From contig NPFB01000099.1 of assembly GCA_014084085.1 (NCBI GenBank), forward strand, positions 37,488-75,085: 37,598 bases of DNA, written 5' to 3'. Below are positions 6,543 to 25,438 of the stretch, one piece after another (the first letter of the stretch is position 1; each line of letters begins with the position of its first letter). The notes under the pieces were generated by a model. It saw nothing but the letters and a program-made list of their open reading frames with translations. It ran no database searches and was not told the origin of the DNA. Both the position numbers and the translations under genes were made by a program. Source of the DNA: Hondaea fermentalgiana. Taxonomy: Eukaryota; Sar; Bigyra; Thraustochytrida; Thraustochytriidae.

Positions 6543-9500
6543 TTATTCAAGAGCACGCTTTCGCGCGACGGCGAGAAGCCTTCGGAGAGCCGGATGCAAG
6601 GGCGCGACGCCCTCTGGATCAAGCGTTCGAAGCAAACGCGCCTTGCACTCACGAGAGCCCGCCAGCGCCGCCCGACACAGGTGCGCAAAGGCATCGTGGT
6701 GGAAGGAAACGCCGCCTGGCCACGCCGTCTCGCGCACAAGACGCTCGAGAGCAGTAAAGTCGAGCACTTCCTGGACTCCGGCCTCTTGTACAACGGCATC
6801 ATGAGTGTGTTGCTGCGCCTCCATCACATCTCGCAAAAGATTCAGAGGCTCGGCGTAGATGTTGTCCGGCTCCACCATAAAGACGCGTTCCTTGAGGAGC
6901 CCGAGGTCGCGCGGACTTGCCGCCAGCGCGCGGGGGCCAGGGTGCAACTCGCCACATTGCGCCCACGCAGCGGCGCGTACTTCGACCCAAGCCGACCCGT
7001 CCAACGTCTCAAACATGTGCCGCAGCAAGGCCCGCACCACGAGAGGCTCGCACTGTGGGAGCGCACGCAGCGAAGGGACCTGGCGCCCCGCCATGGCGAG
7101 CGCCCCGCGCCGGAGATTGTCCACTTCGTCCTGCGCAAGTGCGAGCAGGGCCCGCCACGCGAACGCAAGCGACGGATTCGAGACCTCCAAAACGCCAGAC
7201 GTCCCGAGCGCCTCGAGAGCAGCGCTGCGCAGAAGCGTGCTTTGCACAGGCTTGGCGCAGTCGTGAATGATCGCCGCAAGGGCAACCTGAACCTCTCTTT
7301 GCGAGGCAGCGTACCGGCCCAAGGCGCGCACCACTGCGCCCTGGGCGCCCTCGCCAACGCATACTTGCGAGTGAAACATGGTCAAAAGCCGCTGGGCAAC
7401 TGCGGGCGATCGCTGGCCCTCGCTGGAGGCCAGCAAGTCCATTCGTGCAATTAGTTCTGGGTAGAAGAACACGCCCGCTTCAGTCAATGTCACATGCTCA
7501 GCTGCTTCGAGGACCTCTTGCGCCAAAGGTGAAGATCCCGTCGCTACGTCTTTGGCAGCCCGCAGCGCCGCGAGACGCCTGCGGCAGTCCTCGCTGCGCA
7601 GATTCTCCACTAAAAAGTTCGACGCCAACAGCCGGCATGAAAGTGCAACACTGTCCTCCGTCTGCCAGGGACTGTCTCCGGCCCGCTTGGCGAGATCCAA
7701 GATCGGCGCAGAGAGCGCCGCGCGCGGTCGTAGCAATGAAAAGTTCCAAAGTGCGTCCCAAGTGGCCGTGTACACCATCGAAGAGGGCCCGCACGATTCC
7801 AGGACGGCGCGCAGCGCATTGCTCAGAGGCGCCTCAAGGGCTCCGATCGCCTCGCTTGCGCGCGGACCCGTGTGCAGCTTGCGTTCACGAATTGTCACCA
7901 ACAACTGTGTAAGTTGTAATAAGAGGCCATGCGCGTGATTGTGGCCAAGACGTGGCGGCGACGAGGCACAGCTATCGCTCAGCATGGCAAGAATCTCTCG
8001 AATTGTGTCGAGAAGTCGGAATTCCGGACAAAGACTGGCCAGCGCTCGCGAGGCCATCGAGCGCGCCATCACGTGCGGTTGAGAGGCGCACGCAAGGAGG
8101 AGCGGTAAAAAGGGAAGCACGTCCTTATTTCCCGCCTCCCACGCCTCCTTGTGCTCGCCGACAAAGGCCTCTTCCTCCCCTTCAGGGGACACAAAGGCTG
8201 GTCGCAATCGGGACAGAATCAAGAGCATGGGGTACAGACTGGGGTCCATTGCGCCCATTTTGTTGTGCCCAAGACGCTGCTCGTTGACAATGCGTCGGAG
8301 ATTCTCGAGCACCGCCAAAAAGACATCCCCATAACGCTGCATGAAAAAAGCAGAGTTGACGAGCACGGCCCCCATCGTGCGGCTCACGCGCATGTTCTCC
8401 TGGCCAAAGGCTCGCTGGATCACACGGGCAAACACCATCATGGATGAGTTTCGCACTTGCCAATTGTCATTCCTAAAGCCACGCAACGACAGCAGCAAGA
8501 GCTGCGGTAAGTATTCTTGCAGCTCGTGCTGCAGCGAGCCGTCCTCGAAAAGCATCTTCAAGATATTCAGCCCATGCACGCGAATGCGCATGTCCTCAGC
8601 ATTGCTTGCCAGCAGCATGAGACGGGTCACCATGCGTTCCAGCAGCACGGTGCGTCCCGCGCGAGGCTCGGCGCACGCAAGAGCCAAAAACGCGCTTGCA
8701 AACCCGACGGACCGCCTCAAGTAAAAACCTTGAAGCCCGCCCTCGAGTCGATGCAGCAAATAGTTGGTCCACTGCATTGGAAGCTTGGACAACGCCGGGC
8801 TTTTGCGCAGGCGAAGCAAGCGCGCTGCAATGCCTTGAAAAGAATTGCCGACCACGCGAATTGCGCCCATGTGTCGCAAGCGAATCAGCAGCTGCAGCTG
8901 CACGACGCCAATTGCTGCAACCCGAGGGGCAGCGAGCACAAAGGCGTCCGTCTCCAACTCAAGTGGACAGGTGCGCACAATCGTCTCCATACACATTGTC
9001 ACCTCGCGAATGACCAGCCAGTCGCTGACAACCACGTTTTCGTTGTTGTGAATAGGTCGATCCATGAGAATGAGGTTGTCGTCACCTCTCCTGCTCGACG
9101 ACCCGCCTTCCTTGCTGGCTGCATTCATAGTAGTGGTGTTATCGCCGCTGTTGTCTGCATCGACGGCACCGTCGTCGTCGTCGGAGAGCTGTTCCATGTC
9201 CTCGTCCTCATCGTCCAAGTCGCTGCCATCATCTGCGTCTGTCTGCTTCTTGCACACGACAGCGGCAGCGAGTTCACACGCCTTGTTGAGTACGTTGAGT
9301 GAATCCTCAGCCACTTGCACCCAGGCATCCGGATCACGGCGAAGCGTGGACTCGCTCACCTCCCAGCAGTTGCGAAAGGCTTGAAGGAGGCCAAAGCACG
9401 ACTCGGCCCCAGGCTCGCGATACAGCTTGATGAGGTCGGCCAAGAAGGCGCGTGCCACAAGGTCCCGCGGGAGATTCTGGCCCACTGCTTCTGCTTCAAA

Positions 9501-12500
9501 GTTGTCGCTCGCTTGCTCTTGAAAGGGTTCCACAGGACCCTCGTCAGGGAACAAAAACATATTTGGTTCCATGCAGCGCTCCTTGAGCCGCTGGTCAGTG
9601 CCCGTGAGGTAGTCAACCTGGAGTCCGGCCTCGCGCAGCTCGCGCGTTCCTGTGCACTCAACAAATTTTGACGGCTCGCGCACGCCAACCACGACGCGCT
9701 TGACGCCAGCAGCGATGCAGCGCGAGGTGCAAGGGCGATTGCCGGACAGACGCTTGCTACAAGGCTCCATGGTCGTGTAGATTGTCGTACCTTTGGCTCC
9801 GCCCCGAGCAATATCATCCACGTCCTCGTCCTTTTCGTCAAAGCCGCCAATCTTCATGAATGCCGTTTCTTCTGCGTGCGTGTTGCCCGGAAGCTCGCGG
9901 CTAAAGCCGCGCGCCAAAATATCCACGTCCGCCTCGCGAACGATAATGGACCCAACGTTGTACGCCTTCTCGGCACGCTCACACTTGAACGCCTCGGCGC
10001 AGGACAAGTGCATCCGAGCAACGTCCATGCGCGCCTGGATGCCAGGATCCTCACGCGACGTTGGCTCGCCACGCAGACCCACGGCCCAGCCCTCGCCGAG
10101 GACATAACGCTCGTAAACAAGCTGCAAGAGGGTGCTCCCTCCTCGAGCATTGCGAACCTTGAGACTCTTGGCGAGCAAGAGCGCCCACTTGACGAGCTTG
10201 TGCACTGCAGTCCACGTGTCGAGTCCAGGAAGAGGTGCAGGGACGCGTCGAAGCACTTGCAGAGCAAGCGTCCGCGGCTGCTCGTGCACGTCGCGCACGA
10301 GACTGAGAAGGGAAAAGGTGTGATCCTGATGTTCGAGGCGACAGATATCGGGCGAGGTCGAAAAGACTTCAAACATGATGGACAAATGCGAAAGCACCAT
10401 GCTCGATCGCTCGCGCGGCATGTCGGGATAAATTTGCTCGATCATGGTGCGCTTGAACCATTTGAGAAAGTCAAGGACGGCGGCGCGATCCTTATCGGTC
10501 ACATGCTCGTCGTCGGCACGTCTGCTTTGAACAAGAGCGATGCTGATCCATTCGAAAAACAGTTGCGAGCTGCGGCGCAACCCCTGCGCGCAGCTCTCCG
10601 AGACCGACTTGTGCACAGTGCAGCTATAGACAACCCTTGCAAGGCGGAGGACCTCGGCGCTTGGCATGCGCTGTTTTTTTGTGGGACAAAGTACAAGCTT
10701 GACAGCTCGCAATTGGACCAGGTCATCGGCGTGCTCGAGTCCGTGCCGCACAGCTTCGGAAGGGATACGCACAACCTTTGTCGAAGCGAGAGCAGGTGAC
10801 CTTGACATGGGCGAGCGCGGTGACCGGGGCGATTTGCCACTCGAGCTGTTGTCGTCGAAGGCAGCAAATTCGACGCGAAGCCCCGCGCTTGAGAGTGCGC
10901 CCCAGAGCCGAAGCTGGTCCTCCAGCGCCGGCTTGCGCTTCTCCAGCGCCTCTTGGAGCGTAAGACAGGTAATGCCGCTGACGGAACTGAGCAGCTCGGG
11001 TACGATTCGAGTCGCGACCTGCTCCGCGGCGCTCGTATCGCCCTTTGTGATGGCATCCAGAAGCGGTTCGAGCCAGATGGGTCGTGCATCAAGACCCTCA
11101 CGCTCCTCGAGATTGCTTGCCATGTCTCGAAATAGCTTAGTGCTCACGGTGAAGACCTGCCCGTGCTCCTCGAAGCAGCGCAATAGCGCTGGCATAATGT
11201 TTGGATCCACATCCAATAAGCCGCGCGCACCGTCGTGCTCGAGAAAGCGCCCAACAGCCAAGAGCGCGGCCCGGAGGTTGGTGGTCTGTGATCCTGGCTC
11301 GTGCAAAGTGACTTCTTGCAAGAGACGACGGAGAAGCGTCCCTCGCGCTGCGAGCGCGTGGTCGCGCTCGGCTACAAAAGGTTGAGGAATAGACGCTGGA
11401 TCTGCGAAGGCGACTGCCTCGAGAACCTCGAGAGAGGCATTGAAGAGCGGCTCGAGGTAATAGCGCGCTTTGCGAGATCCTTGACTCCAATTGTCCAGGA
11501 CAAAGTCGAGAAGCGCAAGGCAGCACTTTTTGCCATGGCTCCGCCAGAGCAATAGGGCCGGCATTTCCAAGAGATGGAGTCCTTGCTTGAAAAGCTTGCA
11601 CCATGCTTCAAGGCCCGTGAGACAGTACCCCTGCACCGTAGCATTAAAAACGTGTGCTTCTGAGATGGCCATGAGCTTGGCAAATATGCGCTCGGATACC
11701 GTTTCGACATTGTCCTGAGCAGTCTCGTTTGTGTTTGTATCCGCTGCAAGCAAGAGAGATCGCGGTACGCATGCAAGAAGGTTGCGAAGCAGCAGAGCAG
11801 CGGCAGGTTCGGTGCACGATGCAGCAAGCAGGGCCACGAGCGCACGCGGATCGCTATTTTCACTGGCTTTGTCATCGAGAGAGTCGCTTGCGGCTGGAGC
11901 CGCGACAGACGAGGGCATGGATGAGCTGTGGGCACTGGCAGCGGATGACGCCGCGACATTCGGAGCGCTGCACGCGGTATCAGCACCAGCACCAGCACCA
12001 GCACCAGTCCCAGCGCCAGCGCTAGCGCCAGCACCAGTGACAGTGTCTGTAGGCTTGCCGCCGACCTGAGAGCCCGATTGGACCTCGCACAGCTTAACAA
12101 TGGCGCGACGGACCTCATCCGGGGCACAAAAGGTGAGATCGAGACGAACAATGGAAATGCCCGCAAACATTTCGATGCTCTTCGTTGCTGCTGCAACGTC
12201 AGAATCAGCAGCGGCATTGACCCAGGGAAAGAGAGACTCTTGTGCCATGCCACGGGCTTCCTCGCGGTCTGCAGGTCCCGTCGAGGCAATACGAGTACAG
12301 GCTCCTGGCGCCTGAAGGTACTCCATGAGCGCTTGTACTGGCACTTCGGCGTTTGCTAGAGCCACAGACGCGTCGAGTGCAGTGTCTGGGCCGGCAGCTA
12401 GTGCCGGTATGTTGAGGTCGCGCTGAAGCAGTCGAAGCGTGCGCAAAAGGAGACCTGGATCGACACGATCGACGAGGATGTCGCGGCAAGCGCTGGATAG

Positions 12501-13052
12501 CACAAAGTTGCGGATACCAAGTGCGACGTCAATCTTGTCCACAACACGCGAGGCTCGTGCGCAGAGCTCTGCGACACGAGCCTCGATGCGCGCAGCGAGC
12601 ACGGTTTCGAGGCTCGGGTGCTTGTCGAGACAAGCTTGGAGTACAGCAGACGCCGCCTGGCGCAGCTTGAGCGGAACCGGGGCACCAAGGATATGAGTGC
12701 ATATGCTGATTAGAGCGGCATGGTCTTCGCAATGCATGGCTTCGCCCTGGCGTTGGCAACTACATGGGGTCTCGGAATGCGCGGCAAGTGCGCACCATTT
12801 TCCGGTTTTCACGGCGCCCTTTGCGCTCGATAGTTTGGCCACGCGACCAAGCAAATGGTCGGCGTGCAAGAGAGCCTCCACGAGTCTGCGCGCGGCGGAC
12901 GCGTTGCTGCATTTTGCCACCTGCTGCCAGAGCGCCTCGCGGCTGGGCGTTCTGGAGCCTCCAGGGCCGTCTTTCGCCGCATAGATGTCGCGACCGTGCG
13001 CCGGCACTGGCTGTCTGCCGCGCAGCACGAGTTTGCGGTTCCGTCTCACCAT
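6543..13052 (-). CDS. THADA/Trm732-like protein with an embedded zinc deaminase domain, about 2169 aa
   Basis: This is a very long uninterrupted frame of helical-repeat protein. The DUF2428/THADA core lies at about residues 1440-1555, with RRSVGFASAFLALACAEP, RVHGLNILKMLFEDG and NDNWQVRNSSMMVFARVI. THADA and yeast Trm732 are ARM/HEAT scaffolds that work with the FTSJ1/Trm7 methyltransferase to 2'-O-methylate tRNA position 32. Unusually, residues about 1009-1160 form a cytidine-deaminase-fold domain with intact zinc ligands: HAE (H1059, E1061), then EPCSKRLSGNRPC (C1098, C1108), then AGVKRVVVGVREP. The long Cys-Cys spacing resembles RibD/Rib2-type deaminases rather than the PCxxC of tRNA adenosine deaminases. 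A Gly-Ala repeat (about residues 338-365) and an acidic loop (about 1270-1320) are low complexity. The ATG at 13052 is the first in frame (AAGATGG context); upstream the frame runs to a TGA without an ATG. Confidence 0.9.
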   Translation of the reverse strand: MVRRNRKLVLRGRQPVPAHGRDIYAAKDGPGGSRTPSREALWQQVAKCSNASAARRLVEALLHADHLLGRVAKLSSAKGAVKTGKWCALAAHSETPCSCQRQGEAMHCEDHAALISICTHILGAPVPLKLRQAASAVLQACLDKHPSLETVLAARIEARVAELCARASRVVDKIDVALGIRNFVLSSACRDILVDRVDPGLLLRTLRLLQRDLNIPALAAGPDTALDASVALANAEVPVQALMEYLQAPGACTRIASTGPADREEARGMAQESLFPWVNAAADSDVAAATKSIEMFAGISIVRLDLTFCAPDEVRRAIVKLCEVQSGSQVGGKPTDTVTGAGASAGAGTGAGAGAGADTACSAPNVAASSAASAHSSSMPSSVAAPAASDSLDDKASENSDPRALVALLAASCTEPAAALLLRNLLACVPRSLLLAADTNTNETAQDNVETVSERIFAKLMAISEAHVFNATVQGYCLTGLEAWCKLFKQGLHLLEMPALLLWRSHGKKCCLALLDFVLDNWSQGSRKARYYLEPLFNASLEVLEAVAFADPASIPQPFVAERDHALAARGTLLRRLLQEVTLHEPGSQTTNLRAALLAVGRFLEHDGARGLLDVDPNIMPALLRCFEEHGQVFTVSTKLFRDMASNLEEREGLDARPIWLEPLLDAITKGDTSAAEQVATRIVPELLSSVSGITCLTLQEALEKRKPALEDQLRLWGALSSAGLRVEFAAFDDNSSSGKSPRSPRSPMSRSPALASTKVVRIPSEAVRHGLEHADDLVQLRAVKLVLCPTKKQRMPSAEVLRLARVVYSCTVHKSVSESCAQGLRRSSQLFFEWISIALVQSRRADDEHVTDKDRAAVLDFLKWFKRTMIEQIYPDMPRERSSMVLSHLSIMFEVFSTSPDICRLEHQDHTFSLLSLVRDVHEQPRTLALQVLRRVPAPLPGLDTWTAVHKLVKWALLLAKSLKVRNARGGSTLLQLVYERYVLGEGWAVGLRGEPTSREDPGIQARMDVARMHLSCAEAFKCERAEKAYNVGSIIVREADVDILARGFSRELPGNTHAEETAFMKIGGFDEKDEDVDDIARGGAKGTTIYTTMEPCSKRLSGNRPCTSRCIAAGVKRVVVGVREPSKFVECTGTRELREAGLQVDYLTGTDQRLKERCMEPNMFLFPDEGPVEPFQEQASDNFEAEAVGQNLPRDLVARAFLADLIKLYREPGAESCFGLLQAFRNCWEVSESTLRRDPDAWVQVAEDSLNVLNKACELAAAVVCKKQTDADDGSDLDDEDEDMEQLSDDDDGAVDADNSGDNTTTMNAASKEGGSSSRRGDDNLILMDRPIHNNENVVVSDWLVIREVTMCMETIVRTCPLELETDAFVLAAPRVAAIGVVQLQLLIRLRHMGAIRVVGNSFQGIAARLLRLRKSPALSKLPMQWTNYLLHRLEGGLQGFYLRRSVGFASAFLALACAEPRAGRTVLLERMVTRLMLLASNAEDMRIRVHGLNILKMLFEDGSLQHELQEYLPQLLLLSLRGFRNDNWQVRNSSMMVFARVIQRAFGQENMRVSRTMGAVLVNSAFFMQRYGDVFLAVLENLRRIVNEQRLGHNKMGAMDPSLYPMLLILSRLRPAFVSPEGEEEAFVGEHKEAWEAGNKDVLPFLPLLLACASQPHVMARSMASRALASLCPEFRLLDTIREILAMLSDSCASSPPRLGHNHAHGLLLQLTQLLVTIRERKLHTGPRASEAIGALEAPLSNALRAVLESCGPSSMVYTATWDALWNFSLLRPRAALSAPILDLAKRAGDSPWQTEDSVALSCRLLASNFLVENLRSEDCRRRLAALRAAKDVATGSSPLAQEVLEAAEHVTLTEAGVFFYPELIARMDLLASSEGQRSPAVAQRLLTMFHSQVCVGEGAQGAVVRALGRYAASQREVQVALAAIIHDCAKPVQSTLLRSAALEALGTSGVLEVSNPSLAFAWRALLALAQDEVDNLRRGALAMAGRQVPSLRALPQCEPLVVRALLRHMFETLDGSAWVEVRAAAWAQCGELHPGPRALAASPRDLGLLKERVFMVEPDNIYAEPLNLLRDVMEAQQHTHDAVVQEAGVQEVLDFTALERLVRETAWPGGVSFHHDAFAHLCRAALAGSRECKARLLRTLDPEGVAPLHPALRRLLAVARKRALE
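9590..10028 (-). other. Deaminase domain inside the THADA-like protein
   Basis: This marks the part of the THADA frame that encodes the zinc deaminase. It runs from MDVARMHLSCAEAF, through the His-Ala-Glu active site (codons 9878-9870) and the Pro-Cys zinc motif (about 9764-9729), to the conserved AG-LQVDYLTG end. No stop, frameshift or splice boundary interrupts the join on either side, so the fusion is encoded as such. The key catalytic residues are all present, so an active enzyme is expected. Confidence 0.8.
11983..12040 (-). repeat. Degenerate CACCAG hexanucleotide repeat coding Gly-Ala
   Basis: Imperfect tandem copies of CACCAG/CGCCAG on the plus strand are read on the minus strand as alternating Gly and Ala within the THADA protein. 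This is a low-complexity linker that probably varies in length. Confidence 0.7.
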
Positions 13053-13724
13053 CTTCGGCCTTGTCCGAGGGCCCGAGGTGTCGCGCGCTTCGGCCTCGCG
13101 AGGCGTCGGGGTCCCGACCAGGACCAAGATGCGCTGCGCCAGCAGCTGCTGCCACCACCTCTCGTCCCCCGAGCTTTCTGCTGATCCTCTGGCTCACCGC
13201 TCGCTCGCAGGCGCGCCTGCGTGCCTACGCGTCTGCCTGTCTGCGTGCCTGCGCGTCTGCCTGCCCGCCTGCCTGCGCGCTCGATCGTCTCCGCGAGCGA
13301 GCGCTCTGCGGCCGGACGGCTTTGCTGCGTGCCGCACGCTGCTGCGCTGCGCCCGCCAATTCGAAGATCTCCTTGTTTCCTCCGAATCGCTCAACTTGAA
13401 TGGTCGATGCTCTTGGCTCTTTGCAAGAAGGCCAGGCTCTTTCGTGCCGACGATATGGGGAATCTGATGGTGGCACGCGCTGCCAGAATCGAGAGTTGGC
13501 TTGGATGAATGTCATGCATGGAGGAACCACGAGAGGCAGAAAAGCGGAGGCTGAGTGAGTTCTGGTTTGTATATTCATGGCAAAGCCCAGAACAGCCGAA
13601 CATCTATGACTCCGATGGGCCAGCCATCACTGTGACAAAAGACAATCTAACGTGTATAAACTACGTATAATAATCTACTTCTCTTCTCTCTCTTCCTTGT
13701 CTTGTTCAGATGCAGGCAAGACCA

Positions 13725-18674: not shown

Positions 18675-19784
18675 ACTGAAAGAAATTGCGTTCGCGCCAT
18701 GACCCTGCCTGTCGTATCCCTGCCTGTCGTATCCTTTTCTTCACCTACCGGTGCGCAAACAAGGTAAGGGTATTTGCCGCGCACAGGGAGATACTCCGTC
18801 CCGTGTGCGTGTAAACCTCGTAGATTCCTGACTCGGCGAACAGATCTGTAAACAATGAACAGAGATGCCCTAATTGCACTCTCTATTTTGGAACATTTAC
18901 TAATATCGAGTGGTCCATGGCCGCGCGGCAATGTTTGCTGTTCGTCCTCGTTTGCCGAAGACTTCACGAGCGAACTCTGATAGAGAGGGATGCTTTCGTT
19001 CATTCGTTCGTTTGTTTGAAGCATACATTCAATGCGTGAGCTTGGTTCTCCCATAATGGTCAATATTATGGTCTTCCTAGTGTACCAATCGCCAATTCGA
19101 CATGGCTACCACGACGCAAGCGCGAGCCTTCTTCCGCACCACTTTAATAATTTCACGTCGAGTATGTAGTAACTGTATGAGATGGAGTAAAATGCATGCA
19201 GATACACATGCAGATGCAGATACTCATGCTGGTGACCATCTTTTTCAATAATGGGGATTTCTCCAACCTTGTGAACACTTGGCAGTCTGCAGCCGATATG
19301 GCCGTCCTCCACCGCCACAAAGTTTACGCCTCGCTCTGCGAACGTCTCAGAGCTCGACAGAAAGCAGGGCCTTGGGCCCTTATCGAGCAAAACTCCAATC
19401 GCGTGTGCGAGCGAGCGCGCCGGCAGGTGGACGCGCGCGTGCGCGACGAGGCCGTGCGCTGTCGCGCTGTCGCGCAGTCGTGCGCACAGGCGCGTTCTGC
19501 CGCGAAGGCTGAGGCCGGGGCCGGCCGGCCGGCCGGCAACGGAAGAGCGCATTTGTGTTGTCGGAGGCGCAACCTCTTCGCCAGCGCGCTAACCACCGGA
19601 GGAGGCGCGAAGGCTTGCTGGTTGAGGACTTAGTCATAGTCAAACAAACGTCTCGCGCGCGCACACGAGCGAAAGCACGCGGAGTATAGAGTGTAAAGGT
19701 GTGGCGCGCATCACGACGTACTAGAGCGGCGCGGCAGCGGCGGAGGCGGCGACGGCATCAAGTAACGAGGGTTCAATAGAAAAC
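18675..19784. other. Intergenic region between Sec14 and DOT1 genes
   Basis: These 1.1 kb are without a recognisable gene. They begin with a perfect tandem duplication of a 15-base unit (18705-18734). The middle (18740-19270) is of mixed composition; the last 400 bases are G+C-rich with GGCCGGCC repeats near 19515-19532. Short open frames on both strands have no family character. The DOT1 promoter and 5' leader should lie in the last few hundred bases. Confidence 0.4.
18705..18734. repeat. Perfect 15-bp tandem duplication
   Basis: The unit CTGCCTGTCGTATCC occurs twice head to tail, about 30 bases after the Sec14 stop. Confidence 0.9.
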
Positions 19785-21782
19785 ATGGCCAAATTTGAAA
19801 AGCTGTTTCCGTTTCTTGAGAATCAAGGATGGGCCATGATCGAGGATGGAGACGGCGGCGGCTTCCTGTACGTGCGCCCAACGTCCAAGGTCAAGAGGTT
19901 TGGTCTCCTGATTGAACATCTTGAAGAAGGTATCGACTATTTCAAGAAGAAAAAAGACGTCGAAACTTGGGTGAACGAGCGTGAAAACGTAGTCCTTGCT
20001 TTTGCCGTCTACCAATCGAGCAATGAAATGTCGCAAGAGGAGAAGAAGAAGAAAGAGAAAAAGACCGATGGATTCACCGACAAGGAAAGTCGCGCTTTAG
20101 AAGCCCTGGTTGGTGCAGACATGCTAGACCAAACAAACAACGAATCAAGTTCGGACGCGTGCCGGGCAGCGACGCCTGTTAAAAGAGCAAGCAGCGCTAG
20201 CAAAAGGATGCGCGTGGATGATGGCGTATACGAAAGCTCGAGTCCCTCACGGAGCTCCTTCACGCCACCTCATCACCAAACGAACCAAGACGGACTCCCG
20301 ACGCCCACACGCAAAAGGCCAGCTCATCAAATACTCGCTGCTACTTCTACAAGCATCACCACCACAACTTCAGCCACCACTACTAGCAAGGTCGACCCAT
20401 GTGCACTAGGTGAGGCAGAATCAATATCGAAAGCGAGTCATGCATCTGAGGTGAGCTCGAGCTCAGAAACTGTCCGCATTGGCTCTGATCAGGAGGCGCA
20501 GCGTTCGCGGTCAAGGACGTCAAGATCCGCATCCGTTCGTAAAAAATTGGTCAGCCCCGAGCCGCTGACGTGGACTGATTCTGAAATTGCAAGTATGCTC
20601 GACGAATCATCGCAGCATCTGAGCTATTTTGGTTGGAACCTATGGTTAGAGCGGACAGTGATGAGCTTTGGAGGCTGGCGCGCGCTCGAGTGCTCTTCGA
20701 TCCGAGAGGGCTCGAATGACTTCCATCGAGCCCCACTTGCAGAGTCTGTCTCAGGACACCAATTTCGAGCCCAGTATGGACGCGCGAATTCACACTTGGT
20801 ACAAACCTGCATTCAAGAGGCCCAAATTACTCGAAAGGATCGGTTCATCGACATCGGTTCTGGCATTGGTCAAGTCGTCCTTCAGATCGCTTCATGTGTT
20901 GGCTGTCCATCAATTGGCATTGAGCTCCTCGGCGGTCGCCACGATACGGCAAAGGAGCTCGAGCGCCTTCATCGGCACTTTGCACAAGCGTCCAAGATTG
21001 CTCCTGGATGCACCTTATTCATTCACGGAGACTTTACAGCGCCAAAGCATCAGGAGCTGGTCTCGAAGGCGACCGTCTTCTTTGTGAATAACGCGCAGGG
21101 AACCTTTGGAGTGCGCTGCGTGAAGGCAGGGACGATGACCCTCGATATGCAACTGGCGGCTCTCGCCCGATCTGTGGGGCTTGGATCTCGTTTCATCTGC
21201 TTCGATCCCATCTACGAACTGGAAAGCGCCGAGCTTTCGCGAGTATTTCGTCGACGAACTTTTCGCACGTTGCCTTCTGCGACAGATTGGTCTACGGATT
21301 CGCTCGAACTCACCCTGTACGTGAAGATTGCCAACAAGTGGACCTGTTCGCGCTGCACATTTGCCAATAATCTCCTCAATGCGGCTGGCGAGCCTGTTAC
21401 CTCTTGCGAAGTGTGTGATGAGGATCCGAATGGAATGCAGAGGGAGAGTTATGTTACGCGACGCCGGACCGCGCCGACCCCAATGCAGGATTTGACCGGC
21501 CCCAGCGTCAAGCAGCAGTCTTTGACAAAGAAGAATCTTGTCAAGGTCAAGCAAGATAGACAATCGGCGTCGAAATCTAAGCCTAAAGCACGTCCTCCGA
21601 TGCCCTCAAAAATTGCTGCTATAGGTGCAAGTATGGCTCACTGTTTGCGCACTGCAAGTCCGAGTTCGGAGCGGTCTTCTTCTCCCCTCTCGTCACCTTC
21701 ATTGGCAAAGGTCGGCAAAACCATCATCTCCAAGAAGGCCTCGTCTACTTCTGAGCCAGAGGTCATTGAAATTAACGATTAG
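19785..21782 (+). CDS. DOT1: DOT1-type histone H3 lysine-79 methyltransferase with RanBP2/NZF zinc finger, 665 aa
   Basis: The catalytic domain spans about residues 260-515. The SAM-binding motif I is intact (DRFIDIGSGIGQVVLQIA, D356), followed by GIELLGGRHDTAKEL, IHGDFTAP and the acceptor-site VFFVNNAQGTF, all typical of DOT1 and unlike SET enzymes. DOT1 methylates H3K79 on nucleosomes. A zinc finger follows directly: W519, C521, C524, C541, C544, with the CTF-N signature of NZF fingers. Residues 1-80 hold a small domain (FPFLENQGWAMIEDGDG, YVRP) of a kind I associate with stramenopile proteins, though I cannot confirm it. Residues 100-250 are Ser/Thr-rich and disordered; the tail is basic. 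The ATG at 19785 is well placed (AAAACATGG). Fungal and animal DOT1 normally lack such a finger. Confidence 0.9.
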   Translation: MAKFEKLFPFLENQGWAMIEDGDGGGFLYVRPTSKVKRFGLLIEHLEEGIDYFKKKKDVETWVNERENVVLAFAVYQSSNEMSQEEKKKKEKKTDGFTDKESRALEALVGADMLDQTNNESSSDACRAATPVKRASSASKRMRVDDGVYESSSPSRSSFTPPHHQTNQDGLPTPTRKRPAHQILAATSTSITTTTSATTTSKVDPCALGEAESISKASHASEVSSSSETVRIGSDQEAQRSRSRTSRSASVRKKLVSPEPLTWTDSEIASMLDESSQHLSYFGWNLWLERTVMSFGGWRALECSSIREGSNDFHRAPLAESVSGHQFRAQYGRANSHLVQTCIQEAQITRKDRFIDIGSGIGQVVLQIASCVGCPSIGIELLGGRHDTAKELERLHRHFAQASKIAPGCTLFIHGDFTAPKHQELVSKATVFFVNNAQGTFGVRCVKAGTMTLDMQLAALARSVGLGSRFICFDPIYELESAELSRVFRRRTFRTLPSATDWSTDSLELTLYVKIANKWTCSRCTFANNLLNAAGEPVTSCEVCDEDPNGMQRESYVTRRRTAPTPMQDLTGPSVKQQSLTKKNLVKVKQDRQSASKSKPKARPPMPSKIAAIGASMAHCLRTASPSSERSSSPLSSPSLAKVGKTIISKKASSTSEPEVIEIND

Positions 21783-22409
21783 AAGGCACGACCTCCTTGG
21801 AGATCGTTCACTTCTGGTGGTCGGTGCTTGTTTGCTGTGGTTGATAGTGATGAGGATGATCTTCTTCTTCTTCTTCTTTTATGTCGGTGCCGTTGCCTGA
21901 TAATCTGATCCCTATTTTACGTAAGAAATAATTGAATAAAAGCGTCGTCTCCGGAAATGCCCTACTTTTGATAAGCCTGTTGCTGTCACCATCACCCGCC
22001 ATCATCGCCAGTCGATTCTCATTTCAAGTTGTTGCAGGTTATAAAGACGCCCCTTCCTTGTGTGTGCGTTTTCACCAGACACGGTGCACACTTTGAATTG
22101 CAAATTCTCGACGGTTATCATCGTGTAGTAACATGAGTGCTTGTGCGAATGAATGAATAAATGAGTGCGTGCGGGCGTGCGGGCGGGCCCAGCGATTCTT
22201 GCCGCCCTCCCGATCTCCATTCCCGGAGACTCCCATTGCAGACGCGAGGTCTTTGCCGTCACGGAGGCGGCAAACAGATAGCCGACAGGCTCGAGGAGTA
22301 CGCGTGAACCGAGACTTCGCTCTTGTCAGCAGCCAGACATAGACTCGGACAGACAACTTTGAAACAGACAAACAACAAAACGCAAAACCTGAAAGGCGTC
22401 ACGGCCAGC
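21783..22409. promoter_or_regulatory. DOT1 3' flank and Mad3-like 5' flank
   Basis: These 627 bases contain a CTTCTTCTT run (about 21860-21880), the AATAAA noted separately, ATGAATGAATAAATGAGTG repeats near 22147-22165 and the leader of the Mad3-like gene. No gene is seen. The frame of the next gene is open from 22323 but has no ATG before 22410. Confidence 0.4.
21935..21940 (+). terminator. Possible AATAAA polyadenylation signal of DOT1
   Basis: AATAAA lies about 153 bases after the DOT1 stop in A+T-rich sequence. Its position fits, but it is one hexamer only. Confidence 0.4.
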
Positions 22410-24941
22410 ATGCCCGACGTGGAGAATAGCAACGCCGCCGCCGCGCAGGGCGGCGGCGTGGACGCAGAAGCCTGGGAGCAATGCAAGGAAAACGCAATGC
22501 CAATCAAGCGCGGGCGCGACCCGAAAAAGCTCAAGCCCTTCGGGGCGCAAAGCGAAATCGCAAACCGCAAGGCAAAGCTGGCCCAAGAACAAGAGGCCTT
22601 TGAAGAGGCGCTCGCACAAGCCACAAGCGATGGCCCCATGGAAGACCCTCTAAGCACGTGGATTCGCTACATCAAATGGACGCAAGACAACTTTCCCTCG
22701 GGAAGCAATGACCTCCTCTCGTTGCTCGAAAGGTGCACGCGCGAGTTCAAGGGTGACGAGCGATACAAAAATAATGAAAAGTACCTCAAGGTCTGGATCG
22801 GGTATGCTGATTTGCTCACGAATCCATCGTCAGTCTTCAAGTACCTGCGAGAAAACAAAATTGGCGAGAAGCTCGCGCTCTACTATGTGGCCACAGCCTG
22901 GACCGCCGAACGACGAGGCGACTTTCCCCTCGCGGACAAGGCGTACTCTGTGGGCCTCGAGAAACAAGCCACTCCGGTCGAGTTGCTCAAAAAGCGACAT
23001 CGTGAATTTCAGCGCCGGATGAGCCGTCGCTGGCTCGAGCAGGCAGAGCGCGAACGGAACGGTGAGACTGACCCTGAGACCGAAGAGGCCGAGGCCTCCC
23101 GTGCAAGGTCCCTGCAGACCATTTCTCGTAGCGAGGCTGCCTCCATGCATCGTCCTGCTGCTAACTCTCGACGTGCTGCAGCGGCCAATCCGAATATTTC
23201 GGGCCGACCAGGCCTTGGTGTTTCCACTTCTGGAAATGAGGCCAATGCGCAGGCAGACCGCGCGGGCTCCCGCTTTGCTGTTTTCGAGCAAACGTCCTCT
23301 GCTGATCCCTGGCGGAAGGACGACTGGGGTGACGAAAATCGTTCTTCCGACAGCGCCGCGCGAGATGACGGCCCGGGCTGGAAGCATCTGGCGAGCGTGA
23401 GCGACTTGCAAAAGGAAAACGCACTCGACCCTGCGCCTTGGACACATCAAGGGTTTGGACCAGGACGTACTGCTCCAGCGCGACGGCCTACGCGGGACGA
23501 ACGAGGTGCTACTGATGGGCAGGACGCTGACGCAGAACCCAAGTTTGACATTTACGTGGAAGATGGTCCGGGTGGAGTTCGCTCGCCGCGATCCAGCATT
23601 GAGGAAGGCGCAGGACTCAAGGTGAGGGCAAAGGCTGAGAAATCGGAGGCTGAAATGCTCATGAAGAAGCCTCTACAGAATTTTGACGCCAAGAAACCGC
23701 CTCAGACCACACGAACTGTGGAAACGCCCTCTCACGCGGTGCCCCCCAAGCAAGAGTTCAGACACAAGCCCGAGAAGTCCAGAGTCTCCGAGCCTGAAAG
23801 TCCTGCCGATGTGAAGGAGGCTCTCGACGTCGCTGATCAGGAAGACATGACCATCAACACGAGACTTGCGCTGGACGATATGTTTGAGATGTTCGGGTCC
23901 CCGAGCATGAAGCGCGCGTCTGCCGAGGGCAAGTCTACGAAGAAGAGCAACAACGACAGTGAGGATGGAGACCACAACACAGAAAAGGCACGCGATGCAA
24001 TGGCAGAGAGCTTTCACGAGCTGCATGATGAGGACGACCAAAGACAAGAAGCCAAGGCCCGCGGTACTGGAGAGGAGACATTGAGTTGCAGAACTGGTGC
24101 CGCTCCGTTTTCTATTTTTGGCGCGGAAGATTCGCCAGCACATAAGGGTTCTTCAAAGCAACACAAAGAGGTAGCTGCCGAACCTTTGCGCAAAGCGTTC
24201 TCTATCTTTGATAATGAAGCCCATGTAAAGGGTGATACCGAGAGCACAGCCGGAGTTAATGATGCGCCCTCTCCAAAGGCACGCCGTCCGTTTTCGATTT
24301 TCGGTGACGCAGGTGGAGAGAGCGCTGCTAGTGGTGACGAGGAAGAGGGCAAGTCTCACACTTCGGAACGCAAACCATTCTCGATTTTTGGAGACAGCAC
24401 ATCATCGCACGAGGATGCTCAAGACCCCGAAATGCATGACGGTGCGGACGCATCGCGGCCAAGTAAGCCATTCTCAATCTTTGGAAGCGATGAGGATGAT
24501 TCGAGGCACGAGGAAACAGTCCAGCGACCAAGCAAACCGTTTTCAATTTTTGGGGACAGCACGTCAGCGGATTCAGTCGCAGATGCTGATTTCCAGCCTA
24601 CAAGCAAAAGCACGTCCAGAGCAAACAAACCTTTCTCGATCTTTGGCGGCGAAGAAGCTGGTCTGGAGGAGCAGGGGGGGGAGGAGCAGGAAGCGCCGGC
24701 GTCTCGGCCTACGAAGCCATTCTCCATTTTTGGCGACAGCGACATGGCCAGCGAAAAGCTGGAGCAGGATCCGCCAAGGTCTCGGAAACCCTTTGCCATC
24801 TTTAGCGAGGCTGAAGACGAGGACGCTGACGAGGGTAACGGCGATGTGTCCACTCTCTCATTTGCGCCGTTGGAAGCCATCTTGGAGTCAACTGGCGAGG
24901 CTGACGAATCTGTGAATTCATCGATGTCCAGGCATCACTAA
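22410..24941 (+). CDS. MAD3: Mad3/BubR1-like spindle checkpoint protein with nine-copy ABBA-like motif array, 843 aa
   Basis: The N-terminus has the MadBub hallmarks: a KEN box in CKENAMPIKRGRD (K26-N28), then the Bub1/Mad3 TPR region at about 55-195 (DPLSTWIRYIKWTQDNFPSG, KYLKVWIGYADLLTNP, EKLALYYVATAWTAERRGDF). A second KEN box sits at 335-337 (LQKENALDPAPW). A TINTRLALDDMFEMF segment (481-495) resembles one conserved in MadBub proteins. The C-terminal third repeats a PFSIFGDS-type motif nine times (first Phe at 567, 597, 628, 657, 688, 711, 742, 771, 795), matching or nearly matching the ABBA consensus Fx[ILVP][FY]x[DE] that binds Cdc20. There is no kinase domain, so this is a Mad3-type inhibitor of APC/C-Cdc20 rather than Bub1. 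The ATG at 22410 (CAGCATGC) is the first in frame. Confidence 0.88.
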   Translation: MPDVENSNAAAAQGGGVDAEAWEQCKENAMPIKRGRDPKKLKPFGAQSEIANRKAKLAQEQEAFEEALAQATSDGPMEDPLSTWIRYIKWTQDNFPSGSNDLLSLLERCTREFKGDERYKNNEKYLKVWIGYADLLTNPSSVFKYLRENKIGEKLALYYVATAWTAERRGDFPLADKAYSVGLEKQATPVELLKKRHREFQRRMSRRWLEQAERERNGETDPETEEAEASRARSLQTISRSEAASMHRPAANSRRAAAANPNISGRPGLGVSTSGNEANAQADRAGSRFAVFEQTSSADPWRKDDWGDENRSSDSAARDDGPGWKHLASVSDLQKENALDPAPWTHQGFGPGRTAPARRPTRDERGATDGQDADAEPKFDIYVEDGPGGVRSPRSSIEEGAGLKVRAKAEKSEAEMLMKKPLQNFDAKKPPQTTRTVETPSHAVPPKQEFRHKPEKSRVSEPESPADVKEALDVADQEDMTINTRLALDDMFEMFGSPSMKRASAEGKSTKKSNNDSEDGDHNTEKARDAMAESFHELHDEDDQRQEAKARGTGEETLSCRTGAAPFSIFGAEDSPAHKGSSKQHKEVAAEPLRKAFSIFDNEAHVKGDTESTAGVNDAPSPKARRPFSIFGDAGGESAASGDEEEGKSHTSERKPFSIFGDSTSSHEDAQDPEMHDGADASRPSKPFSIFGSDEDDSRHEETVQRPSKPFSIFGDSTSADSVADADFQPTSKSTSRANKPFSIFGGEEAGLEEQGGEEQEAPASRPTKPFSIFGDSDMASEKLEQDPPRSRKPFAIFSEAEDEDADEGNGDVSTLSFAPLEAILESTGEADESVNSSMSRHH
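24105..24810 (+). repeat. Nine-copy protein repeat, consensus KPFSIFGDS
   Basis: Nine copies of an 8-9 residue motif are spaced 23-31 residues apart, mostly 29-31, in acidic Ser-rich linkers. Codons vary among copies (CCG/CCA/CCT, TTT/TTC, TCT/TCG/TCA/TCC, ATT/ATC), so the DNA has diverged while the peptide has not. Copies 3, 4, 6, 8 and 9 fit Fx[ILVP][FY]x[DE] exactly; copies 1, 2, 5 and 7 have the acidic residue displaced by one position. Confidence 0.92.
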
Positions 24942-25438
24942 GAAAGGAAACGAAGAGAGAGAGAGAGAGAGTAAAGAATGAAAGAGTCTCTTCTCTTTTG
25001 GGAGAAATCGCGTCCGAGGTCGTAAGTGCCTGAATGCATTGCTTTTGTAGCTCTAGCTCATTTTCAAAAAACAAAACAAAAACCTCACGAACTTCATACT
25101 ATTATGTGAGGCAAGCCTGATTGCGAAAGAGTTGAGAAAAGGGTCTCTGCTTGGCCAAATCTAAATTTTGGGTGTACCACACAACACTTGTCGAATATTA
25201 CGATCTTGGCTGCAGCACTTAGTTTAGCCTCACTGTCACCCCAGCATGTGCTTTTCTCATCTTCTTTCTAAACCCTAGTGACAGATCGTCAGTCACGTGT
25301 GTTGCGAAGTCTTCATTCTCCTAACGTTAGATTTTGCTTTCCTGTCCATGAATAGACGGACAAGACAGCCTTTCGTGCACGACACAGGGAGCAAAGGGCC
25401 GATGAAGGAGGTGAGATGGGCACCGAAAAGTATGCACT
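24942..25438. other. Convergent intergenic region, no gene seen
   Basis: These 497 A+T-richer bases lie between the stops of the Mad3-like gene (+) and sideroflexin gene (-). They include a (GA)n run at 24953-24971. No AATAAA is seen on either strand and no protein-like frame. Confidence 0.4.
24953..24971. repeat. (GA)n dinucleotide repeat
   Basis: About nine GA units begin 12 bases past the Mad3-like stop. Confidence 0.8.

Follow-up and report, generated by a model that had tools for sequence, protein, structure and literature searches.

The stretch of DNA analysed here (the window, 37,598 nt) comes from the thraustochytrid Hondaea fermentalgiana and contains a gene of the MadBub (Mad3/BubR1-type) family whose product carries nine ABBA-like motifs in series in its C-terminal part; in animals, peptides of this kind bind the anaphase activator Cdc20. 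The coding sequence (22410–24941, on the plus strand like all features of this gene given below) is open without introns and encodes a protein of 843 residues (P0001), identified by its translation, by Pfam (PF08311) and by phmmer comparison with the PDB. The Mad3/BUB1 homology region 1 (TPR) that defines MadBub proteins was found at residues 59–183 (22584–22958; Mad3_BUB1_I, E = 7.3e-37). The PDB matches included human BUBR1 (1.4e-34) and Schizosaccharomyces pombe Mad3 (4.5e-32), and Bub1 was matched as well. Across the genome searched (36.0 Mb in 238 contigs), the gene in the window gave the only Mad3_BUB1_I match.

Upstream of the array, the protein shows the organisation of a MAD-type member, with a KEN1 box and an ABBA1–KEN2–ABBA2 cassette as defined in PMC5204127. 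The KEN1 box (residues 26–28; 22485–22493) aligns with KEN1 of human BUBR1. The ABBA1 position of the cassette is occupied by FAVFEQ (residue 289; 23274–23291), which has no acid at position 6, and is followed by KEN2 (QKENA, with KEN at residue 335; 23409–23423) and by ABBA2 (FDIYVED, residue 379; 23544–23564), which the motif scan found to be an exact consensus match. W324 and W344, a pair picked by eye, stand on either side of KEN2, and flanking tryptophans of this kind are described in PMC5204127. A conserved LxxR...ExEML..KPLxNF block seen in the alignment (23616–23684) is perhaps the MadaM motif, a name that appears in the same paper. Further downstream lies the CMI (CDI)-like motif DQEDMTINTRLALDDMFEMFGSPSMK (23835–23912), a putative Mad1-binding site assigned by resemblance; DMTINTRLALDDMFEMF aligns with the equivalent block of two related proteins (P0010 and P0014), and the motif lies 66 residues before the array. 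On the 3' side of the array, a conserved C-terminal block, xLSFAPLEAILExxxExDES (24849–24914), has a pattern shared by four of the six other array proteins described below (P0003–P0006, not P0007 or P0008).

Features of BUB-type proteins other than the CMI-like motif were not detected. No kinase domain was found, Mad3_BUB1_I being the sole Pfam family in the 843 residues at E 0.01. A profile of the Bub3-binding GLEBS motif, built from P0009, P0010 and P0012–P0015, placed none of the seven array proteins (P0001 and P0003–P0008) above inclusion, with P0003 at −2.1 bits, and a strongly diverged GLEBS might be missed by it. A GLEBS-like DNA pattern matched the Hondaea genome 14 times against 13 times in a reversed control, and none of these matches had a convincing context by eye.

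The array consists of nine F-[SA]-I-F cores starting at residues 567, 597, 628, 657, 688, 711, 742, 771, and 795, which together span residues 567–800 (24108–24809) with core-to-core spacings of 30, 31, 29, 31, 23, 31, 29, and 24 residues. Five of the nine copies located by the core scan match Fx[ILVP][FY]x[DE] exactly, namely copies 3 (FSIFGD; 24291–24308), 4 (FSIFGD; 24378–24395), 6 (FSIFGD; 24540–24557), 8 (FSIFGD; 24720–24737), and 9 (FAIFSE; 24792–24809). The remaining copies 1 (FSIFGA; 24108–24125), 2 (FSIFDN; 24198–24215), 5 (FSIFGS; 24471–24488), and 7 (FSIFGG; 24633–24650) each have the acid one place later. ABBA motifs in series in a MAD or MadBub protein constitute the repeat-array class described in PMC5204127, to which the Hondaea protein belongs with its nine cores and five exact motifs. 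Chance can be rejected as the origin of the motifs: in 20,000 shuffles of residues 500–843, exact motifs occurred 0.034 times on average and never more than twice (observed, five), and FSIF never more than once (observed, eight).

The 12-nt core strings of the nine copies are all different, and comparison of the copies within the gene gave a proportion of synonymous differences (pS) of 0.93 and of nonsynonymous differences (pN) of 0.023 for the cores. The flanks have diverged at both kinds of site (pS 0.78 and pN 0.58 for the six codons upstream; pS 0.78 and pN 0.63 downstream), which together with the distinct core strings and the low core pN indicates that the copies are old and that the peptide has been held. 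As DNA, the copies belong to a single 18-nt family with 67–89% identity to a reference copy, and Tandem Repeats Finder reported only an AG run over 22300–25100 and not the array; the copies are therefore not fresh duplications. Recent duplication of DNA is likewise rejected by the silence of Tandem Repeats Finder taken with the nine distinct core strings. The array is thus genuine and old, and its core peptide is under constraint. A codon pattern for PFSIFG matches the genome 11 times. Seven of these matches fall in the MadBub gene, where two of the nine copies deviate from the pattern; the other four are single, one in a transmembrane-like open reading frame (ORF) and three in frames of 41, 102, and 285 codons.

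Around the cores, a basic residue at −2 and a proline at −1 are each present in eight of nine copies. The linkers between cores are 17–25 residues long (the shortest in related proteins is 14), would span approximately 50–90 Å when stretched, and contain no W or Y and approximately 20% acidic residues, a composition that suggests that the array tail is probably disordered. An earlier note on this DNA had described a Mad3/BubR1 homologue with the TPR region and two KEN boxes, nine motifs at a spacing of 23–31 residues, five exact copies, and codons that differ between copies under a conserved peptide, all of which is borne out by the results above. The note had also proposed that a shared upstream R-P-[ST]-K-P context adds a phosphorylation switch, and this is rejected as a property common to all copies because only three of nine carry it.

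The public annotation of this gene differs from the ORF in the window. The nearest public protein is a Hondaea fermentalgiana record (P0002) that is letter-identical to the window protein over residues 1–562, 635–702, and 772–843, the remainder lying in or beside two stretches that the public model skips. Both begin with GT, end with AG, are multiples of three, and are open in frame; the first (24097–24312, 216 nt) removes copies 1–3 and the second (24519–24716, 198 nt) copies 6–7, so that the public model retains four copies and hides five. Because the copies inside these stretches are as conserved as the rest, they are probably false introns rather than real ones, but they may also represent splice forms that change the copy number. 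Surveys of predicted proteins may undercount arrays of this type, since the public model hides five of nine copies here. The same record joins the MadBub protein to the product of an upstream DOT1 gene (19725–21779) under the name of a histone methyltransferase. In the window, the two are separate ORFs, and two related proteins (P0003 and P0005) consist of the MadBub protein alone with its array, which argues against a DOT1–MadBub fusion.

Copies were counted in the window protein and in six of the 14 related proteins found (P0003–P0008). The other eight were excluded: P0002 is the window protein with skips, P0009 and P0011 stop before the array region, and P0010 and P0012–P0015 are four oomycete proteins and one (P0014) that groups with them. 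A permissive pattern, F.[ILVMA][FHYL], applied after the CMI-like motif, collected 46 copies, doubtful FSAF, FAAF, and FEAF cores among them: nine in the window protein, 10 in P0003, two in P0004, nine in P0005, three in P0006, seven in P0007, and six in P0008. Twenty-one of the 46 match Fx[ILV][FHY]x[DE] exactly, the others lacking an acid at position 6 or a hydrophobic residue at position 3. Position 6 is acidic in 26 copies (binomial P = 7e-8 against 0.203), a proline at −1 is present in 33, and glycine occupies position 5 in 15. Phenylalanine at position 1 is found in all 46 copies, and position 4 carries F 39 times and H seven times, although the conservation of both is partly imposed by the search pattern.

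These cores persist among proteins only 35–58% identical overall. P0005 is labelled as an entry of a transcriptome collection, so an array is present in the mRNA of a relative. In a tree of the N-terminal part, the seven array proteins group together with moderate support (81/92, not starred); their internal order is not resolved, so that copy gains and losses cannot be placed in sequence. For six of the nine Hondaea copies the best-scoring neighbour lies in another species, and for three (copies 4, 6, and 8) it lies in the same protein; as other species supply most of the candidates, this pattern shows only that the array has not been homogenised recently. Copies 3–5 of P0003 resemble a recent local duplication. 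Probably the array itself is older than these species and has undergone turnover of copies. P0010 and P0012–P0015 all carry two ABBA-type motifs after the CMI and a GLEBS motif, and three of them have a kinase domain.

The comparison of copy numbers among relatives suggested in the earlier note thus yielded 2–10 copies in six related proteins. A group of relatives keeps several copies. The further proposal of the note, that this lineage itself turned the motif into an array, is weakened because ABBA repeat arrays are already in print: Tromer et al. (2016) reported them in MAD proteins of the moss Physcomitrella patens, basidiomycetes, and stramenopiles (PMC5204127). Those arrays share the motif class, the protein family, and, for the stramenopiles, the supergroup with the array in the window. 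The available text gives no copy numbers, and the main text of the paper contains none of the terms Thraustochytr-, Aurantiochytrium, Schizochytrium, and Aplanochytrium. Among the papers listed by searches for MadBub ABBA motifs and for checkpoint proteins of thraustochytrids, no further array of this sort is described in a title or abstract opening. The array in the window is accordingly a new and unusually regular example of an already known array type and not a new principle. Specific to it are the copy number, the near-regular spacing, the lack of a detectable GLEBS motif or kinase domain in the sole MadBub protein found in the genome, and the loss of five of nine copies from the public gene model.

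Several better known proteins resemble parts of this arrangement. Human BUBR1 carries one C-terminal copy, ABBA3 (also ABBA528 or Phe box), whose peptide PFSIFDE is nearly identical to the units that occur nine times in Hondaea; phmmer aligned it (5khu_Q) to copy 8, a stretch that is not significant alone (independent E-value 39). This C-terminal motif of BUBR1 is a tighter Cdc20 binder than either copy of the cassette (PMC5179498), yet it plays a minor part in the checkpoint (PMC5204127). The ABBA1–KEN2–ABBA2 cassette known from the same two papers is present in Hondaea as FAVFEQ, KEN2, and FDIYVE, separate from the array and upstream of it. The order of the CMI-like motif followed by ABBA-type cores is that of human Bub1, where the CMI/CD1 precedes one C-terminal ABBA copy instead of nine. 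CD1 of human Bub1 is reported to bind Mad1 through the RLK motif, and the nearby ABBA motif to keep Cdc20 close to Mad1–Mad2 (PMC5472792; PMC9605988).

Two arrays outside the MadBub family can also be compared. One is formed by the MELT repeats of KNL1, where a checkpoint scaffold likewise carries many copies of a short docking motif, in numbers that vary between lineages. Recurrent evolution of the KNL1 repeats is mentioned in PMC5579357. MELT repeats differ in their partner, as they bind Bub3 after phosphorylation by Mps1 (PMC5472792), whereas the ABBA class binds Cdc20. The second is a JGI protein of 747 residues (P0016) with 16 units of the KPFSVFMDN type, 11 of which match Fx[ILV][FHY]x[DE] exactly, and with 14 of its 15 gaps between 24 and 32 residues. 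Unlike the window protein, P0016 has no Mad3/BUB1 domain, and it matches the cyclin A region that binds the anaphase-promoting complex/cyclosome (APC/C) at 36.6 bits (Pfam Cyclin_N2); it may be an unrelated APC/C regulator with multiple ABBA motifs.

Two genes of the Hondaea genome pass the Pfam cut-off for Cdc20/Fizzy, one Cdc20 and one Cdh1, distinguished by the C-box and the IR tail and, for Cdc20 only, by comparison with the PDB. Their ABBA-binding grooves were compared by alignment to human Cdc20 at seven residues, I235, Y240, R262, Y279, I280, V295, and R296. Of these, I235, Y279, and V295 were mutated in PMC6712056, R262 and I280 are given as ABBA-binding residues in PMC5179498, and Y240 and Y279 are named for ABBA binding in PMC9357983; R296 was our own addition as the neighbour of V295. 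PMC5179498 prints one groove mutant as Y179E/I280Q, for which human Cdc20 numbering and PMC6712056 indicate Y279. The Hondaea Cdc20 has V235, Y240, R262, H279, V280, V295, and R296, which is four of seven identical with two Ile-to-Val changes and one Tyr-to-His change. The Cdh1 has T235, H240, R262, N279, Q280, V295, and R296, three of seven identical, and has lost the hydrophobic positions. Human Cdh1 does not bind ABBA motifs, its groove residues not being conserved (PMC5717348). Because the groove is largely kept in the Cdc20 of Hondaea and has lost its hydrophobic positions in the Cdh1, the array is predicted to be specific for Cdc20.

Other checkpoint partners are encoded in the genome as well, including a Mad1 that carries an RLK motif and a presumed Mad2, identified by a full-length HORMA match. 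A Bub3-like gene is 45% identical (266 bits) to the human BUB3 query, the next gene, Rae1-like, scoring 127 bits. The best PDB matches of the Bub3-like gene were chains of the mRNA export factor Rae1, whereas those of Bub3 stayed below the threshold; it is called Bub3-like from its similarity to that one query. This gene is retained although the MadBub protein has no detectable GLEBS motif. A Bub1-type kinase was not found elsewhere in the genome with one oomycete protein query and one DNA pattern (DxG[RQ]xID), a search that had no positive control and does not show absence. PF16500 (cyclin A N-terminal region) and PF08317 (Spc7/KNL1) matched neither this genome nor the control genomes, and their silence shows no absence either.

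Based on these results, we consider it reasonably likely that the array represents nine ABBA-class Cdc20-docking motifs that hold Cdc20 beside Mad1–Mad2 and function like the single ABBA motif of human Bub1. The CMI-like motif would dock the MadBub protein on Mad1–Mad2, and each array motif would fit into the groove that blades 2 and 3 form in the WD40 propeller of Cdc20. Capture of Cdc20 near Mad1–Mad2 might then favour formation of Cdc20–Mad2, which could be passed on to KEN1 and the ABBA–KEN2–ABBA cassette within one polypeptide. With a large number of sites of moderate affinity, Cdc20 would be captured and rebound more often, and several molecules of it might be held at once. The binding of several like sites to one receptor site is known as allovalency (PMC9289945). 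Binding of Cdc20 and Mad1 by the window protein is proposed here by analogy with known families, and multiple occupancy by Cdc20 with an effect of dose is speculative.

Several observations weigh against this docking function. An acid is absent from position 6, the site of a salt bridge (PMC5717348), in four of nine copies here and in 20 of 46 overall, and Di Fiore et al. found that simultaneous changes at positions 3, 4, and 6 abolished binding (PMC5179498). In the Hondaea Cdc20, His replaces Tyr279 of the groove; His is also reported at position 279 of Arabidopsis CDC20 (PMC9357983). One assay found ABBA3 of human BUBR1 dispensable for the checkpoint, and this motif may have a role in silencing (PMC5204127). 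Two relatives have only two and three copies, so the protein can do without a large array, and no GLEBS motif was found that would account for the arrival of the MadBub protein at kinetochores. The tail alone had no sequence match in the PDB up to E 10 and did not match the Pfam Cyclin_N2 family, which includes an ABBA region; among the relatives scanned only P0005 did, at E 0.037 and under the cut-off.

The array might instead act as a stoichiometric sponge that binds several Cdc20 molecules at once, with copy number setting the strength of the checkpoint, as the earlier note had suggested; this appears unlikely to us. The minimum spacing is 20–24 residues in the six tested arrays of at least five copies, P0016 included, and the minimum gaps exceed those of random placement in P0001 (P = 5e-5), P0003 (0 of 20,000), P0005 (0.002), and P0016 (0 of 20,000), but the result is only weak in P0007 (0.03) and lacks significance in P0008 (0.11), and duplication of a unit also yields regular spacing. 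The shortest linkers have a contour of approximately 50–65 Å, and others up to 90 Å, leaving room for one propeller per motif, which is geometry only and not evidence. With 2–10 copies among relatives, checkpoint strength would vary widely, and the assay in which human ABBA3 was not needed (PMC5204127) speaks against the simplest equation of copy number with strength.

A broader and rather doubtful proposal, extending Cdc20 docking on Mad1–Mad2, is that the checkpoint has been rewired in thraustochytrids. The sole MadBub protein would have lost GLEBS and kinase, kept the CMI, and multiplied the ABBA motif, becoming a Mad1-docked, many-site arm for loading Cdc20 that is independent of placement by Bub3–KNL1, so that valency replaces tethering to kinetochores.

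It is distinctly improbable that the motifs bind a partner other than Cdc20, such as nuclear transport factors that recognise phenylalanine-glycine (FG) repeats. FSIFG resembles the units of FG nucleoporins, and the sole Pfam match of the tail is Nucleoporin_FG, although it scores 9.4 bits (E 2.6) where the cut-off is 32.2. The FG dipeptide is not kept, glycine standing at position 5 in only 15 of 46 copies compared with F at position 1 and F or H at position 4 in all 46 (both partly through the search pattern), and the neighbouring elements are the CMI and the KEN2 cassette; membership among FG nucleoporins is therefore judged unlikely. A neutral low-complexity expansion without a function of its own, for which the disordered appearance of the linkers and the variable copy number could be cited, is highly improbable given a core pN of 0.023 against a pS of 0.93, flanks diverged at both kinds of site, and cores kept in relatives 35–58% identical overall.

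What the extra ABBA motifs of BubR1 and Bub1 do is unsettled, hence the interest of relatives with 2–10 copies, which, with one MadBub and one Cdc20 gene found in Hondaea, form a natural dose series for testing valency. If copy number tunes the capture of Cdc20, the checkpoint would be adjustable by repeat number alone.

Nothing in the window was reported by Rfam at the gathering level. Away from the MadBub gene, an ORF of 2216 residues on the minus strand (6546–13193) encodes THADA/TRM732 domains (DUF2428 and TPR_Trm732_C), and a domain of the deaminase fold is embedded in the same protein (PF18785, E = 3.5e-29, residues 1081–1204). In this embedded domain HAE and the EPCSKRLSGNRPC stretch are kept, the latter also resembling the deaminases of the riboflavin pathway (DRAP). 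According to literature abstracts, THADA/TRM732 has a role in 2'-O-methylation at tRNA position 32, and for this reason the protein is a possible deaminase of tRNA position 32.

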